From a virus: a DNA stretch of 43,614 nucleotides. Positions 19,094-43,614 of this stretch are shown here, one piece after another. The stretch spans positions 1-43,614 of IMG/VR virus record IMGVR_UViG_3300044951_000465; one strand, 5' to 3'. The notes under the pieces are model-generated. The model worked only from the letters and a program-made list of their open reading frames with translations. It was not told the origin of the DNA and made no database searches. The translations under genes and the position numbers were made by a program. Numbering within the stretch: position 1 is the stretch's first letter; every line of letters begins with the position of its first letter.

Positions 19094-21667
19094 TTATCCA
19101 GTTATCTCAGATGTCCAGCAGGTAGCTGACCATCGAATGGTTTTCGCTGCTTCTCCAGTCACGGTTATAGCCAACGCACCGTTGGTTGTATCTGCTGCCA
19201 CATTGACATCCCATGCAGCAGTATCTTCTGCCAATACTGTTTTCGTAACAGAACCAACTAAAGCAGTCGTTGCAGCAGAACCGTTCCTATCGATAACACC
19301 TTTAAACTCATATCCTGCTGATTCATTATCCGCATCAGTACGACGGGCAACGACAAGGATAGTGAATGCGTAAGTCGAATCGTTCGGTAAGACTACTTGA
19401 TTGTACGCACTTACTGTACTGGTATCCGATGTTAATGCAGTAGGGGTCGCATTGGTTGTAATTGTACCGAGAACGGTTGTCCCCATTTGACCTGCTGTAC
19501 CTCCACCAATGGCAGGCGTATAGTAAGAAGCAAACGCATATTTACCATAGATACTAGCTACAGAAGCCCCAACACCTATCGCGCATGAATATTTTGAATT
19601 AGAGGTACTAACACTAGCTCCATTTATCGCCACAGAGTATTGCGATGCTGCAGTACTAGAAGAACCGATAGCTATTGCACCAGTTTGATTCGCTATTGTA
19701 CTGGTTCCAATACTTATCGAGTCTACCCCGCTTGCTTTAGCTAATTTGCCAATCGCAATACCATTCGCCCCAGTCGCACCATAAGAAGCAGTGTTGTTGG
19801 TTATTACGGCAGCAAACGAATCCCCGCCAACGGAGTAAGAACCACCGATTGCTACAGAACCTGCTCCTGTAGCGCATACGGCTGCGCTTCCTGAACCATT
19901 AGAACCAATGGCTGTTCCATAATTAGCAGCACAGTTGGCCGAATCCCCAAGGGCTACACCCTTGACGCCGCTGCAAGCAGTCGCTGTTCCTATTGCAGTA
20001 GCGTTAGTTCCAGCACCAGCAGAATTATAGCCGATAGCGACAGTACAGGTGCCTGTGGACTGAGCGTAAGCACCTAGTGATACTGACAAACTTCCTGAAC
20101 CGATTCCAGATGCTTGTACTATCGACCACTTACCTGACGCGGAAGCATCCACACAAACAACTCTTACAGTTTGTCCAATCGGTACACTCCACGAATTGTC
20201 CCCTGTAGCAAACGTATCACTTCCTACTCTAGTTATCGCTATAGGGCTTCCTCCACCGTAATTGTAATAATAGAAATTAAATCCAACGCCTATTGCAGCA
20301 CAAGATGGTAGCGTTATCGCCCCTGATCCAGATGTTGTGCGAATTATCGAGCCAACATCATTAGCCACAACAGAATACGCAGTGGTCTTATCGGACACTA
20401 CCAACGTTGTACTGATGGTATCAATGCTACCTTGTAACTCAGCAAGAGCAGCGTTCAAATTGGTTGCTATAAGGTTTCCTGACGCGGCGGTTGTCAAACC
20501 GTTTGATGTGAACACACCAACCGAAGTACCGTTGACAGCTATCCCTAAATCTTGAGAAGAAGACTTGTAGATACCTGTGTTAGTCTTAGTTGCAAAGTTT
20601 ATAGCAGGAGAGGCAGCGGAACCATCGGTAGCACTAATTGAAGATACGACAGTGGTACTTTGTGCAGAAACAATGTCTGTTCCATCACAAAAAGCGATAG
20701 TTCTAGATGTCTGAGCGACAGTTACCCCTGTACCTAACGAAGTCTTGACGATTACACTGTTTGAAGTTGAACAATTGTTATACGTGTAGTAAATCGCAAC
20801 TACAGGAGGGACAATAACGGTTACTGTGGCCGATGGTGTACCTGTGAATGTCAACAGTTTGTTAGACGCTTCGGTAGGACTAAGCGTTATAGTTCCTCCA
20901 GCCGAAACATCTTTTGTCAATTGAGTGAAATTGTATTGGACGGATTTGCCCAATCCAATCGAATATAACGCTGAACCTGAGCAAGCTATTGTTAGAGATT
21001 CACCGGGTTGGATCGTGATGCTAGAAGCACCGTCAATCAATTCACTTGAATTCGGGTCTAATGTGACCGTCCCTGTTCCGCTATTTCTGAACAACAGGAA
21101 GAAGTCGTCGGCCAATGTTGCCACTGCGGAAAACGTGTAGGTGGCGACACCACCGGTATGAACCAATACTTTTGAACGATAGCTTGTATCTATGGTTATA
21201 CCTGCGGCAGAAGTAACGACAGGGTGAGCTTGGTTCAAACTTGTTGAAACAGCCTTGATACCATAACCGATCAACGAGGCTGCATCGGCTGAAGATGAGC
21301 CAACACCATAAGAAACAACTGCCCAAGTACCCGCTTCTGAGCTATTGTCAGTTACAAAGATATACTTGGCTACACCACTAGAAACAGTTGTAACAGTGTT
21401 GCCGATAGAATCAACAATGGTTACGCTGTTTGTCCCGATGTTACGAACTAGAAAATCCTCACCTTTACTGACTTCGGATGCAAACGGAAGCGTCAAAATA
21501 AGACCAGCGGAACAAGTTATATCCATTATCGAAGATATATAACCGCCCGTTCCATCGTAATTGAACGACCATTGCAGCGTAGAGTCCGTAGTGAATGTCT
21601 GCGAAGAGTAGGTCTGTCTAGACGGATTTACCGTATTTGAACCAAAAACATCGGAATAGGTTGTCAT
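19094..21667 (-). CDS. Tail fibre with YadA-like head repeats
   Basis: An 857-aa Ser/Thr/Gly-rich beta protein. Residues 1-430 contain repeated beta domains such as 'GTVTLDPNSSELIDGASSITIQPGESLTI' blocks. Residues about 525-710 hold a run of short motifs like VAIGYNS, TAIGTAT, VALGDSA, TAIGSNG, VAIGGSY, IAIGKLA, ISIGTST, IAIGSSS and CAIGVGA; these are the 14-residue-type repeats of YadA/Hia trimeric adhesin heads. The C-terminal ~130 residues (ending RWSATCWTSEITG) resemble a receptor-facing tip. It likely forms a trimeric host-recognition fibre. The start overlaps the adaptor gene. Confidence 0.8.
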   Translation of the reverse strand: MTTYSDVFGSNTVNPSRQTYSSQTFTTDSTLQWSFNYDGTGGYISSIMDITCSAGLILTLPFASEVSKGEDFLVRNIGTNSVTIVDSIGNTVTTVSSGVAKYIFVTDNSSEAGTWAVVSYGVGSSSADAASLIGYGIKAVSTSLNQAHPVVTSAAGITIDTSYRSKVLVHTGGVATYTFSAVATLADDFFLLFRNSGTGTVTLDPNSSELIDGASSITIQPGESLTIACSGSALYSIGLGKSVQYNFTQLTKDVSAGGTITLSPTEASNKLLTFTGTPSATVTVIVPPVVAIYYTYNNCSTSNSVIVKTSLGTGVTVAQTSRTIAFCDGTDIVSAQSTTVVSSISATDGSAASPAINFATKTNTGIYKSSSQDLGIAVNGTSVGVFTSNGLTTAASGNLIATNLNAALAELQGSIDTISTTLVVSDKTTAYSVVANDVGSIIRTTSGSGAITLPSCAAIGVGFNFYYYNYGGGSPIAITRVGSDTFATGDNSWSVPIGQTVRVVCVDASASGKWSIVQASGIGSGSLSVSLGAYAQSTGTCTVAIGYNSAGAGTNATAIGTATACSGVKGVALGDSANCAANYGTAIGSNGSGSAAVCATGAGSVAIGGSYSVGGDSFAAVITNNTASYGATGANGIAIGKLAKASGVDSISIGTSTIANQTGAIAIGSSSTAASQYSVAINGASVSTSNSKYSCAIGVGASVASIYGKYAFASYYTPAIGGGTAGQMGTTVLGTITTNATPTALTSDTSTVSAYNQVVLPNDSTYAFTILVVARRTDADNESAGYEFKGVIDRNGSAATTALVGSVTKTVLAEDTAAWDVNVAADTTNGALAITVTGEAAKTIRWSATCWTSEITG

Positions 21668-23521: not shown

Positions 23522-24058
23522 CTATTTCACAATCTCTTTTGGTCGAACGTGCCAGTCGATGACCGCGTTGAATTCGGCAAGGCATTTGTCGAGTCGGGAG
23601 TAGTTTTCGGCAACATTGACCCCAATGGCTCGGGTGACTTCGGCCTGGTAGGCAAGATCAGCGGCACTTTCGGCAGGGGTCGCTGGAGTAGATGGGTCGG
23701 GGGTTGTGGGCAATCCGGTTTTAGCGCCACTGGCGTACTCCACCAGCACCCGGACAGAAGGGTCACACACCCCAGTAATAGCGTTGGCATACTTAAGGTA
23801 CTCAGATCGAGTTTCATCTAGCCTCCGTTGGGTTTCTGCAAGTTTCGCACTGAGTCGGTTTCCCGCCTCGACGCCCGCAAGATACTGCTGATGCGCCTCC
23901 TCTGCCTGAGCCGCAGCAAGTAATCTATGCCGATCCTCGCACTCAGTAGTAGCGTCAGAGCGAATAACCATAACACCCCAAGAAAGGCCAGCGATAATAC
24001 AAACGGTAGCAGCAAAACCGATCCAAACATTGCGGGGAATGAGTGCGAGGAAACCCAT
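23522..24058 (-). CDS. i-spanin (Rz-like)
   Basis: A 178-aa protein starting at ATG 24058, one base after the stop of the 35-aa peptide (TGACATG). It has one N-terminal transmembrane segment at about residues 11-31 (IGFAATVCIIAGLSWGVMVIR), a periplasmic Ala/Glu/Arg-rich coiled coil (about 45-80) and a C-terminal part. This is the Rz topology: an inner-membrane anchor with a periplasmic coiled coil. A different-frame lipoprotein gene is nested inside it, which strongly supports the call. The frame is open to 24106, but the later start suits the membrane topology. It acts after endolysin to fuse inner and outer membranes. Confidence 0.85.
   Translation of the reverse strand: MGFLALIPRNVWIGFAATVCIIAGLSWGVMVIRSDATTECEDRHRLLAAAQAEEAHQQYLAGVEAGNRLSAKLAETQRRLDETRSEYLKYANAITGVCDPSVRVLVEYASGAKTGLPTTPDPSTPATPAESAADLAYQAEVTRAIGVNVAENYSRLDKCLAEFNAVIDWHVRPKEIVK
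23527..23817 (-). CDS. o-spanin (Rz1-like lipoprotein) nested within Rz
   Basis: A 96-aa protein read in another frame inside the i-spanin gene. ATG 23817 has GGAGG five bases upstream. The N-terminus is a lipoprotein signal with lipobox LSGC and Cys24 as the lipidated residue; the mature part is Pro-rich (residues 28-65: many P, PKVP, PTRP). These are the hallmarks of Rz1. It should anchor in the outer membrane and pair with Rz. Overlap is nearly complete at the 3' end, ending five bases before the Rz stop. Confidence 0.85.
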   Translation of the reverse strand: MKLDLSTLSMPTLLLGCVTLLSGCWWSTPVALKPDCPQPPTHLLQRPLPKVPLILPTRPKSPEPLGSMLPKTTPDSTNALPNSTRSSTGTFDQKRL

Positions 24059-24059
24059 G

Positions 24060-24167
24060 TCATTTGTCACCCGAGTTGAAATCAACCAAATAAACCAATG
24101 CAACAACCGCGATTATCACCATTGGCACGCCGAAAGCTAAAAGGATTGGAATTTGTTCTGCGATCAT
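24060..24167 (-). CDS. 35-aa single-helix membrane peptide
   Basis: ATG 24167 overlaps the holin stop as ATGA, and its TGA is one base before the spanin start. The peptide has a hydrophobic core at residues 5-28 (QIPILLAFGVPMVIIAVVALVYLV) and a short polar tail ending SGDK. Being flush with both neighbours supports a real gene. It could be a second holin, antiholin or pinholin-like factor in the lysis cassette. Confidence 0.6.
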   Translation of the reverse strand: MIAEQIPILLAFGVPMVIIAVVALVYLVDFNSGDK

Positions 24168-29530: not shown

Positions 29531-29938
29531 TCAAGCGTTGATAAATTCGTACTGCGTATTCAACGGATCACCTTTGATCTTTGCAATCAATTCGTGGTCG
29601 TTAATCAACATGAAAACGCAAGGTTCATCGGGTTCGGATGTGATCGTTACTTCAAAACGATCACCACCGTATTTCGGAACACGAACAAAGGAGCCGACGT
29701 CAGCCCAAACACCTTCAGGCCAGGGTTCCAATGTGTCTTTCTTCTTAAACGCCAATGGACCTATTTCAACCACTTTGGCAACTTGCGTTGAGTATTTCTC
29801 GGAATCCCGTGTCTCATTGACAATCAAAATCCCACCCGCAGTTGTTTTCTTCACACGTCGCAATTGAACCAAAATACGTCCACCAAGAGGCTCGATACGT
29901 GAATCAACGTCGGGAAAAGCCCACTCTATATCGGTCAT
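29531..29938 (-). CDS. GroES-like co-chaperonin
   Basis: A 135-aa protein of Cpn10 type: RIEPLGGRILVQLRRVKKTTAGGILIVNE at about 16-44 (the hallmark PLxDRVLV...KTAGGI pattern with mobile loop), then a beta core with KVVEIGPLAF, VGSFVRVPKYGG and a C-terminal CVFMLINDHELIAKI. It is longer than bacterial GroES (about 97 aa). It should cap host GroEL during folding of capsid protein. Its place beside scaffold and capsid genes fits. Confidence 0.85.
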   Translation of the reverse strand: MTDIEWAFPDVDSRIEPLGGRILVQLRRVKKTTAGGILIVNETRDSEKYSTQVAKVVEIGPLAFKKKDTLEPWPEGVWADVGSFVRVPKYGGDRFEVTITSEPDEPCVFMLINDHELIAKIKGDPLNTQYEFINA

Positions 29939-30215: not shown

Positions 30216-30767
30216 TCAAGCTGCGAGTAAAAGCCACTCATCTTCATGTTTCTTTTTACGTTTAATTGCAATTTGTTTGACGTTATGCGCTATCAGCTTT
30301 TCAACTTCTGCTTTTGAAACTACAACAGCTTTAGGTTTCGACACTGAAACCAGTTTCAACGGACTCTTTGTGATTGCATCTAAAACATCGTCAATCTCTG
30401 CAATCAGACTTTCATTTTCAGCATTGCGAGTAAACACCGGAGCGCGTGGTGCTATGCTAGGGTAAGGGGTACTTTGCTCAACACGTGCTGCTGCGCGTCT
30501 ACGGGGTTGCTTTTTAACCTGTTTTGCCGCCTTTACAACTACAGGCGCAACGGTTTTAACTCCAATCCCACGTTTCTTATGATCTTCTTCAATCGATTTG
30601 GCATAAAGCTCGTACATCCAAAGACGTGTAACACCTGATCGTTTGTTACCCATGTTTTGGCAACATTCAGCGATCTGCGTAAGCTTGTTTTTATACGATA
30701 CCCCTTGAGGATGCGACCAAATCGCATTAGATATCGCAACATTGTCTTCAACCGTCAGGTCAACCAT
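30216..30767 (-). CDS. Basic hypothetical protein with an N-terminal module shared with the fibre
   Basis: A 183-aa basic protein. Residues 1-40 (LTVEDNVAISNAIWSHPQG...LTQIAECCQN) match in order the C-terminus of the preceding repeat protein (LTPEDIAAIADAVWAHPDA...LDQILACCNG). The middle is Lys/Arg/Ala-rich (KAAKQVKKQPRRRAAARVE at about 80-98) and a second basic helix ends the protein. The start overlaps the upstream stop by 8 bases in another frame. It may be an assembly partner of the adhesin; a DNA-binding role is also possible. Confidence 0.6.
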   Translation of the reverse strand: MVDLTVEDNVAISNAIWSHPQGVSYKNKLTQIAECCQNMGNKRSGVTRLWMYELYAKSIEEDHKKRGIGVKTVAPVVVKAAKQVKKQPRRRAAARVEQSTPYPSIAPRAPVFTRNAENESLIAEIDDVLDAITKSPLKLVSVSKPKAVVVSKAEVEKLIAHNVKQIAIKRKKKHEDEWLLLAA

Positions 30768-31548
30768 TACAACACGCTAAAATCTGATCCAATTGTTCGT
30801 GAGCAGCAATTGCGTCTGGATGTGCCCATACAGCATCTGCAATAGCGGCGATATCTTCCGGTGTTAATGAACTCGCCGCAGCCCATGTGATTCCAGCACT
30901 TTGTCCTGTAAGGGTGAACGTACCGTTCTGAGCAACGATAGAACGACTGCGCGTAATTGTTGCATTCTGCCCTGTCAACGACAACGTGCCATGCTGCGCG
31001 ATTAGGTCATAAGCACCTACTGTTGTACGTGTTATCGTCGCACTTTGTCCGGTTAGCGTCAGCGTTCCGTTATTGGCAGTTATGACCTTGCTACGCTTGA
31101 TAATTGCACTTTGTCCCGTGAGGGTCAGCGTGCCGTTGCTTGCGACGATCCGTTTACTTCGAGTTATCGTCGCACTTTGACCAGTTAGTGTCAGCGTACC
31201 TGCTTGCGCGGTTAGAACTTTGCTCTTGGTGAGAGTGGCAATTTGTCCGGTTAGCGTCAGCGTCCCGTTATTGGCAGTCAGCGTGTATGCTGTGCCACTC
31301 AGCGTCGTCCAACCATCTACATGAACGACGTTTGAATACGTCGTACCGTCAAAGATTACCGCAGCAGAATCGTATTCAGTCGATGCACTCAGCCCAGTCG
31401 CATCAAGATACTGACCTGATCCTGTCCATGTCGCATTGCCTGCCCACGATGCCGCTGCACCTGTCGAATCCTGCCCTGCGACGATCTGCGCGTTGCTAGG
31501 TGTGCCAGTGCCTGCGGGGTAGGTGACGATGTATAAAGTTTGCGGCAT
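30760..31548 (-). CDS. Adhesin C-terminal part: Fn3-like domain plus six 22-aa repeats
   Basis: A 262-aa protein. Residues 1-85 look like most of a fibronectin type III domain (TLYIVTYPAGTGTPSNAQIVAG...YLDATGLSASTEYDSAAVIFDG...SNVV). Residues about 85-222 are six copies of a 22-residue unit with core GTLTLTGQSATITRSK. The last 37 residues form the module shared with the 183-aa protein. The first Fn3 strand seems to be encoded at the end of the preceding lectin gene, one base away in another frame, and no good ribosome site precedes this ATG. It is probably a host-binding or decoration protein made by frameshift or reinitiation. Confidence 0.7.
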   Translation of the reverse strand: MPQTLYIVTYPAGTGTPSNAQIVAGQDSTGAAASWAGNATWTGSGQYLDATGLSASTEYDSAAVIFDGTTYSNVVHVDGWTTLSGTAYTLTANNGTLTLTGQIATLTKSKVLTAQAGTLTLTGQSATITRSKRIVASNGTLTLTGQSAIIKRSKVITANNGTLTLTGQSATITRTTVGAYDLIAQHGTLSLTGQNATITRSRSIVAQNGTFTLTGQSAGITWAAASSLTPEDIAAIADAVWAHPDAIAAHEQLDQILACCNG

Positions 31549-31555
31549 GTCAGGT
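31543..31555 (-). promoter_or_regulatory. Possible +1 frameshift or reinitiation site (ACC TGA C ATG)
   Basis: The lectin gene ends ACC-TGA, followed by C and the next ATG. Skipping one base at the stop would read GAC-ATG and join both frames. UGA followed by C is the weak stop context used in prfB. The upstream codon ACC is not as slippery as CUU, so stop-restart coupling is the main alternative. Confidence 0.4.
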
Positions 31556-32407
31556 GCTCGCAGTCAATCGCCCGCCGCTGCTGGTGATATTGCTCACCGC
31601 GAGGGAGGATAGGACCGGGAATGAGGGCGATGAAACGTCGAAATAGATGACACGCTTTTTGGGTTTGAAAATTTGCCAGGGGTTATTGAATAACTCTTTT
31701 ATTTCGGCATGACTTAATGGCCTTCCAAACGCATGGACAAAACTTAGCCCCCCATTTAGGTAATCTTGATAGCCTACATACGATCTAGACCCAAGTCTTG
31801 CTGATGTAGTTGAAGTTGGTATTGCTGTCGAGCATGTTGTACTGTTTACTAAAACTCCTTCTACCCAAACCTCTGCACGATTGTTTGCAGGAGAATACAC
31901 AACGCAACATGTTCTGACGTCTCCAGCAACTGGAGTTCTGCCTTCTGCAATTTCATTAGTTCCAAGTGTGCCGCCTCCATTAGCATAAAACCTTGTTCCT
32001 GATCTTGATGGCGTGCCAGTATAATAAAAGTTTTCAAGCGTGTAAGAGCGACCACCAGTATTATCGTCTTTTGAAAATAACGAATGCCCAACACCCGATC
32101 CTGTTGTAGAAATCTTATATCTTAAAAATACAGTAATACTTTTGTTGGTAAAATCTACATCACTTCCTGTACCGCAGTCTGTATATTGACTACTTGTTTT
32201 TATAAAATTCTTTATCCTACCTAAACTATCCGCGTATACTGTCGGACCATTTATATCTGTTAATGATTTTTTATTAACAGAATTAATTAAAGAGGTTGCT
32301 GCTGACCAGGAGAATTGTAGGTTATTAGTAATTGGGTTAAAAAAATCTACGTCAACCACTCCTTGCGGCTGACGTTTCCACCGATCCGGAAGAATAATCG
32401 CAGCCAC
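31550..32407 (-). CDS. LamG/concanavalin-like lectin domain protein (adhesin N-terminal part)
   Basis: A 285-aa protein. A concanavalin-type jelly roll is recognisable: YTDCGTGSDVDF, ITVFLRYKIS, NNRAEVWVEGVLVN, ARLGSRSYVGYQDYLNGGLSFVHAFGRPLSHAEIKELFNNPW (residues up to about 245), which is the usual end of phage LamG domains. It then has KPKKRVIYFDVSSPSFPVLSSLAVSNITSSGGRLTAST, the first strand of an Fn3-like domain, before the stop. It probably binds glycans on host or on particle surfaces. The AT-richer DNA of its middle (about 32000-32350) differs from its neighbours, hinting at exchange. Confidence 0.78.
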   Translation of the reverse strand: MAAIILPDRWKRQPQGVVDVDFFNPITNNLQFSWSAATSLINSVNKKSLTDINGPTVYADSLGRIKNFIKTSSQYTDCGTGSDVDFTNKSITVFLRYKISTTGSGVGHSLFSKDDNTGGRSYTLENFYYTGTPSRSGTRFYANGGGTLGTNEIAEGRTPVAGDVRTCCVVYSPANNRAEVWVEGVLVNSTTCSTAIPTSTTSARLGSRSYVGYQDYLNGGLSFVHAFGRPLSHAEIKELFNNPWQIFKPKKRVIYFDVSSPSFPVLSSLAVSNITSSGGRLTAST

Positions 32408-43125: not shown

Positions 43126-43190
43126 TAATTTTTGAAATTTTAAAATTTTTTGTCGTCTCATATTGAGAACCGTGTGACATCGCGGTTCTA

Positions 43191-43261
43191 TAAAGCTCGA
43201 CAGCCTGTCCTAATTAATAAAGCTCGACAGCCTGTCCTAATTAATAAAGCTCGACAGCCTG
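43191..43261. repeat. 27-bp tandem repeat, 2.6 copies
   Basis: Unit TAAAGCTCGACAGCCTGTCC plus TAATTAA: exact copies at 43191-43217 and 43218-43244 and a partial at 43245-43261. Each full copy contains GACAG-C-CTGTC, an 11-bp odd palindrome, and a TAATTA palindrome. It lies just upstream of the terS promoter. Possible roles are operator, terminase-binding site or origin iteron. Confidence 0.85.

Positions 43262-43614
<353 letters not shown>

Follow-up and report, generated by a model that had tools for sequence, protein, structure and literature searches.

The window analysed here is a virus record of 43,614 bases (IMG/VR IMGVR_UViG_3300044951_000465, positions 1 to 43,614) that encodes a terminase, portal, head protein, endolysin and GroES-like gene. 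The phages collection, searched by DNA and by protein, gave no match to the locus described below, and one scan of the genome collection returned a single relative, the bacterial L137, which carries tandem unbroken domains. A DNA-pattern match in L013 was rejected as chance.

Three consecutive genes on the minus strand form the locus: a lectin gene, a second open reading frame (ORF2) that begins directly behind it, and the gene that follows ORF2 (Table 1). The lectin ORF matches Laminin_G_3 (PF13385, E 5.3e-12, Pfam), and the lectin modelled alone gives a poor structure (pLDDT 47). Its core (31682-32359) is swapped between related phages, at about 25% identity, and the sequences flanking it, a head (ILPxRWxxQPQG) and the NPWQIF-tail, are conserved in most relatives; in the relative L034 three lectin domains occur in tandem. 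The C-terminal motif of ORF2 (AIADAVWAHP...LACC) is partly duplicated where the next gene begins, with a second match of 42% identity at 30657-30764; the two copies together span 30657-30873.

Table 1. Features of the lectin-ORF2 locus, in window coordinates.
Feature	Position	Strand	Description or basis
Lectin gene	31550..32407	-	285 aa; GTG start at 32407; LamG/concanavalin-like core
Lectin C-terminal tail, FPVLSSLAVSNITSSGGRLTAST, Fn3 strands A and B	31553..31621	-	Alignment with fused homologues; L022 model; kept in related lectins
Junction TGA-C-ATG (lectin stop, one base, ORF2 start)	31546..31552	-	Same in two other contigs
ORF2	30760..31548	-	262 aa; half Fn3 domain, repeat stalk, conserved C-terminus
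ORF2 N-terminal half Fn3, strand C onward (MPQTLYIVTYPAG...WTTL)	31300..31548	-	Alignment with fused homologues; L022 model
Degenerate repeats (GTLTLTGQ..AT), putative stalk	30883..31287	-	Tandem repeat 31031-31269
ORF2 C-terminal motif, LTPEDIAAIADAVWAHP...LACCNG, putative anchor	30763..30873	-	Same motif in L044
Next gene	30216..30767	-	Overlaps ORF2 by 8 nt; without a ribosome site (dG +0.1)

The lectin ORF ends GCG AGC ACC TGA, followed by a single C (31549) and the ATG of ORF2 (31548-31546), confirming on the minus strand the junction ACC-TGA-C-ATG reported in a preliminary description of this DNA. A +1 reading through the stop, ACC-(T)GAC-ATG, is open and joins 285, one and 262 residues; the fused protein envisaged in that description is thus available as an open reading, at a length of 548 aa instead of about 547 aa. 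The frame of ORF2 is open for just five codons upstream of its own ATG. The lack of a good ribosome site before this ATG is borne out by a dG of -2.2 kcal/mol, compared with about -4 to -9.5 for most window genes preceded by a real intergenic gap. A one-base event could divide an unbroken ancestor in this way, and a genuine or assembly frameshift had been raised as an explanation of the break. However, two other IMG/VR contigs match the window with 100% identity over 2,800 bases across the junction, which makes an assembly slip in a single record unlikely; the split is also kept in divergent phages. An error of sequencing or assembly is accordingly regarded as extremely improbable, and so is an inactivating mutation that arose recently in a single strain.

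Natural homologues in which the domain is unbroken were found by a search using a distant ORF2 relative, and comprise L130, L132, L134, L136 and the bacterial L137 (tandem copies). These homologues align across the junction, the lectin tail FPVLSSLAVSNITSSGGRLTAST corresponding to strands A-B and ORF2 from MPQTLYIVTYPAG onward to strand C and beyond. The joined domain was modelled as a single chain on the relative L022, with the stop read through as a residue, and the resulting model has a mean pLDDT of 84, with about 89-95 in the tail strands; strands 22-32 and 35-43 lie before the stop and strand 47-55 after it. When the L022 joined-domain model was compared with the PDB, matches with E<=0.001 were essentially all Fn3 (e.g. 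5n48, TMt up to 0.80). The Pfam fn3 model matched neither the ORF2 halves, the lectin nor the fused homologues. The split of an Fn3 domain between the lectin ORF and ORF2 is real and conserved. The division of one such domain between the two ORFs, as first proposed, therefore stands, but the L022 model assigns two strands (A and B) to the tail, where only the first strand had been recognized. Homologues in one chain, which it had been suggested should be sought, do exist, solely as unbroken, ordinary domains; relatives with this junction always have two ORFs, and in all of them the domain is split, not complete in one of the products.

Eleven distinct related junctions were compared, the window included, with spacing counted from the first base of the stop to the first base of the start. 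All 11 keep two ORFs, with an NTG start 4-12 nt from the lectin stop, and seven read TGA-C-ATG or TGA-C-GTG (window, L026, L021, L035, L123, L125 and L143). ORF2 lies in the lectin frame in L022 (TAA-GCT-ATG), L124 (TAA-ATC-GTG) and L038 (TAA-GGATGACAT-ATG), and L039 has a TAG stop and a longer spacer (TAG-CGCG-ATG). All of them keep a stop with an NTG close behind it, at a constant position in the domain, while the stop codon, the spacer and the frame (+1 or 0) vary. The ribosome site of ORF2 is weak at 10 of the 11 junctions, the exception being L038, where it is good. The five unbroken homologues have no Met or Val start at the split position, the NTG being present in split forms only, which argues that it acts as a start codon.

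The preliminary description had likened the junction to a prfB frameshift site. The junction carries just one of the defining elements of prfB frameshifting (PMC12421855), the UGA-C at 31552-31549; TGAC also ends 6 of the 24 listed window genes. The likeness to the programmed +1 frameshift of prfB (PMC12421855) lies in the UGA followed by C and in the +1 relation; unlike prfB, the junction is without an AGGGGG-like element and a CTTT slippery site and is, as far as known, not regulated by its product. Programmed +1 frameshifting at ACC-UGA-C would yield a minor fused lectin-Fn3-stalk protein beside free lectin, a proposal favoured by the correct +1 frame, by UGA-C being a weak stop, by the recurrence of TGA-C-NTG at 7 of the 11 junctions, and by the shifted residue, an Asp that would sit where the unbroken homologues carry Asp. 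Precedents are also known in the +1 shifts at CCC_UGA of Listeria phage PSA (PMC5009743) and in SPP1 gp17.1*, which acquires an Fn3 domain via frameshift (PMC8718954). The sequence around the stop, however, speaks against such a shift. An internal Shine-Dalgarno is absent (dG -2.2 in the window and -2.2 to +1.9 over the TGA-C set, vs -10.6 for the prfB motif), as is a slippery P-site codon (CTTT; CCC_U in phage PSA). A +1 slip of the P-site tRNA costs one of three pairs at all seven TGA-C junctions, the first pair being lost in the window (ACC to CCT) and the middle pair in other relatives, and the P codons vary within this set (ACC, AAC and AGC). RNA structure at the junction did not exceed chance (z about -1.3 to +1.3). 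In L022, L124 and L038, the lectin and ORF2 cannot be fused by frameshifting because ORF2 follows in the same frame behind a TAA. The frameshift-appended Ig/Fn3 sequences of SPP1 gp17.1*, T3 coat and Listeria PSA resemble the present case in that a phage surface protein is followed by out-of-frame Ig/Fn3 sequence; in those phage cases, however, a whole C-terminal domain is appended, whereas the present break falls within the domain and the frame relation varies among relatives. With UGA-C alone of the prfB elements and a frame relation of 0 in three relatives, the prfB-like reading is not supported, and programmed frameshifting in general is considered improbable, although some frameshifting at a low level may occur. 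Even without binding of the two halves, the locus illustrates that an out-of-frame Ig/Fn3 half at a TGA-C-ATG is by itself no evidence of frameshifting.

Given the variable frames and stops and the weak ribosome sites, the best reading of the junction is stop-restart, which the preliminary description had named as an alternative. In the GeneTack study, the signature of coupling is a co-located stop and start within 10 nt (PMC3711429), and gene pairs at -8 to +10 nt are enriched for complex subunits in E. coli and H. volcanii (PMC10666635); removal of the Shine-Dalgarno often weakens reinitiation but need not abolish it (PMC6728339). At the junctions described above, the start lies within about 10 nt of the upstream stop, this arrangement is conserved, and the downstream ribosome site is weak. 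In the window, three genes in a row begin close to the preceding stop, at a distance of 3 nt for the lectin gene, 1 nt for ORF2 and -8 nt for the gene behind it. Their ribosome sites are weak or missing (dG -1.7, -2.2 and +0.1, respectively), and most window genes with wider gaps have good ones. The next gene overlaps ORF2 and is without a ribosome site, suggesting that the coupling run goes on past ORF2. Ribosomes ending the lectin at the UGA would restart at the AUG one base downstream, and two products would result: a lectin with a free A-B hairpin at its end, and a stalk protein beginning with the open C-to-G remainder of the Fn3 domain. We infer that reinitiation is the main route to ORF2, and the two proteins would be made in coupled amounts. 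As in known termination-reinitiation pairs (PMC6728339, PMC10666635), the stop and start are a few nt apart, the downstream ribosome site is weak and the arrangement is conserved; unlike the usual pairs, the present one does not overlap by 4 or 1 nt and does not encode whole subunits, one domain being divided between the two products instead.

The strands missing from each half lie in a separate polypeptide, A-B in the lectin ORF and C-G in ORF2, both in the window and in its relatives. Compared with its nearest relatives, the window shows about 25% identity in the lectin core but 69-90% in the tail and 87-91% in the ORF2 half; for the gene upstream of the lectin the value is 91-96%. The tail is likewise conserved at the C-terminus of related lectins, and the ORF2 repeats differ among relatives, with unrelated repeats in their place in L010 and L035. 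The conserved A-B tail and C-G half therefore sit between two variable parts. The tail shows little synonymous change: in the comparison of the window with L033 the figure is 6/30 codons, against 65/130 for the upstream gene, and with L026 the tail gives 7/36. Coupling by itself does not account for this; phages may have exchanged the tail recently, or a constraint at the RNA level may act on it.

It is proposed that the A-B hairpin of the lectin would fill the open C-G half of ORF2 to form one Fn3 domain non-covalently, and that the rebuilt domain would attach an exchangeable lectin to the stalk. In chaperone-usher pili (donor-strand complementation) and in engineered split Ig-like tags, a beta-strand element of one chain completes the Ig-like fold of another. 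By analogy, the strands of one polypeptide would here too complete the fold of another; the difference is that the donated strands would be A and B instead of G, and that complementation is putative here, being deduced from the genes. Two loci bear on the arrangement: L034 encodes an A-B-tailed lectin followed by a gene whose C-G half is without A-B in cis, and in L127 the C-G half without A-B in cis lies two genes away from the A-B-tailed lectin. With tail and half in such separate genes, the split of L034 and L127 is not one that a local frameshift could join. Among locus groups holding a C-G half without its own A-B, 13 of 15 have an A-B tail in another gene, a count that is biased, since the searches behind it were directed mostly at one half or the other; the exceptions are L135 and L129, in which a half domain is present and no A-B tail occurs in the DNA seen, L129 being cut short upstream.

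It is also possible that the genes are coupled and the halves do not complement, the tail being a remnant or a C-terminal hairpin of a generic kind, and the half domain of ORF2 folding alone or dimerizing. L135, with its C-G half lacking an A-B neighbour, is consistent with this, as is the end of the L039 ORF2, where an A-B-like tail has no C-G start adjoining and may serve other uses. The tail is, however, conserved far beyond the lectin core, tail and half domain share a locus in most groups as counted above, and an exposed half of an Fn3 core would be costly, such that non-complementing halves appear somewhat unlikely. That the lectin gene and ORF2 are separate, translationally coupled genes whose halves most likely rebuild one Fn3 domain non-covalently is the combined reading adopted here, with a confidence that is evenly balanced. 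As judged from the genes, the two proteins would rebuild the domain with variable lectins attaching to variable stalks. A more tentative extension, to which slightly less than even weight is given, is that the split Fn3 may act as a snap-on connector, in which any A-B-tailed lectin would fit a stalk with an open C-G half, whether encoded by adjacent or distant genes, giving plug-and-play adhesins. If the halves bind, they would represent a natural split-protein connector by which a fast-changing lectin is kept separate from its carrier. They would then also explain how phages exchange adhesins without redesign of the fibre, and could be put to use as a genetically simple coupling pair.

Several further features were observed. 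One ORF2, at L039:9235-9948, opens with a C-G half and closes with an A-B-like tail (LSLPTVIDITATTARGRVTATEYA), resembling a subunit with a donor end and an acceptor end. In the window, the GroES-like co-chaperonin gene (Cpn10, E 9.7e-08) at 29531-29938 adjoins the head genes, and a nested ORF pair at 23522-24106, beside the endolysin, has the look of Rz/Rz1 when judged by eye, with a lipobox (LLSGC) and a proline-rich inner frame. The region 19094-21667 encodes a large protein, probably a tail fibre, that contains YadA head repeats. Close to the window end, a 27-bp exact tandem repeat is present in 2.7 copies (43190-43261), and a pure TGGC run occupies 43556-43614.
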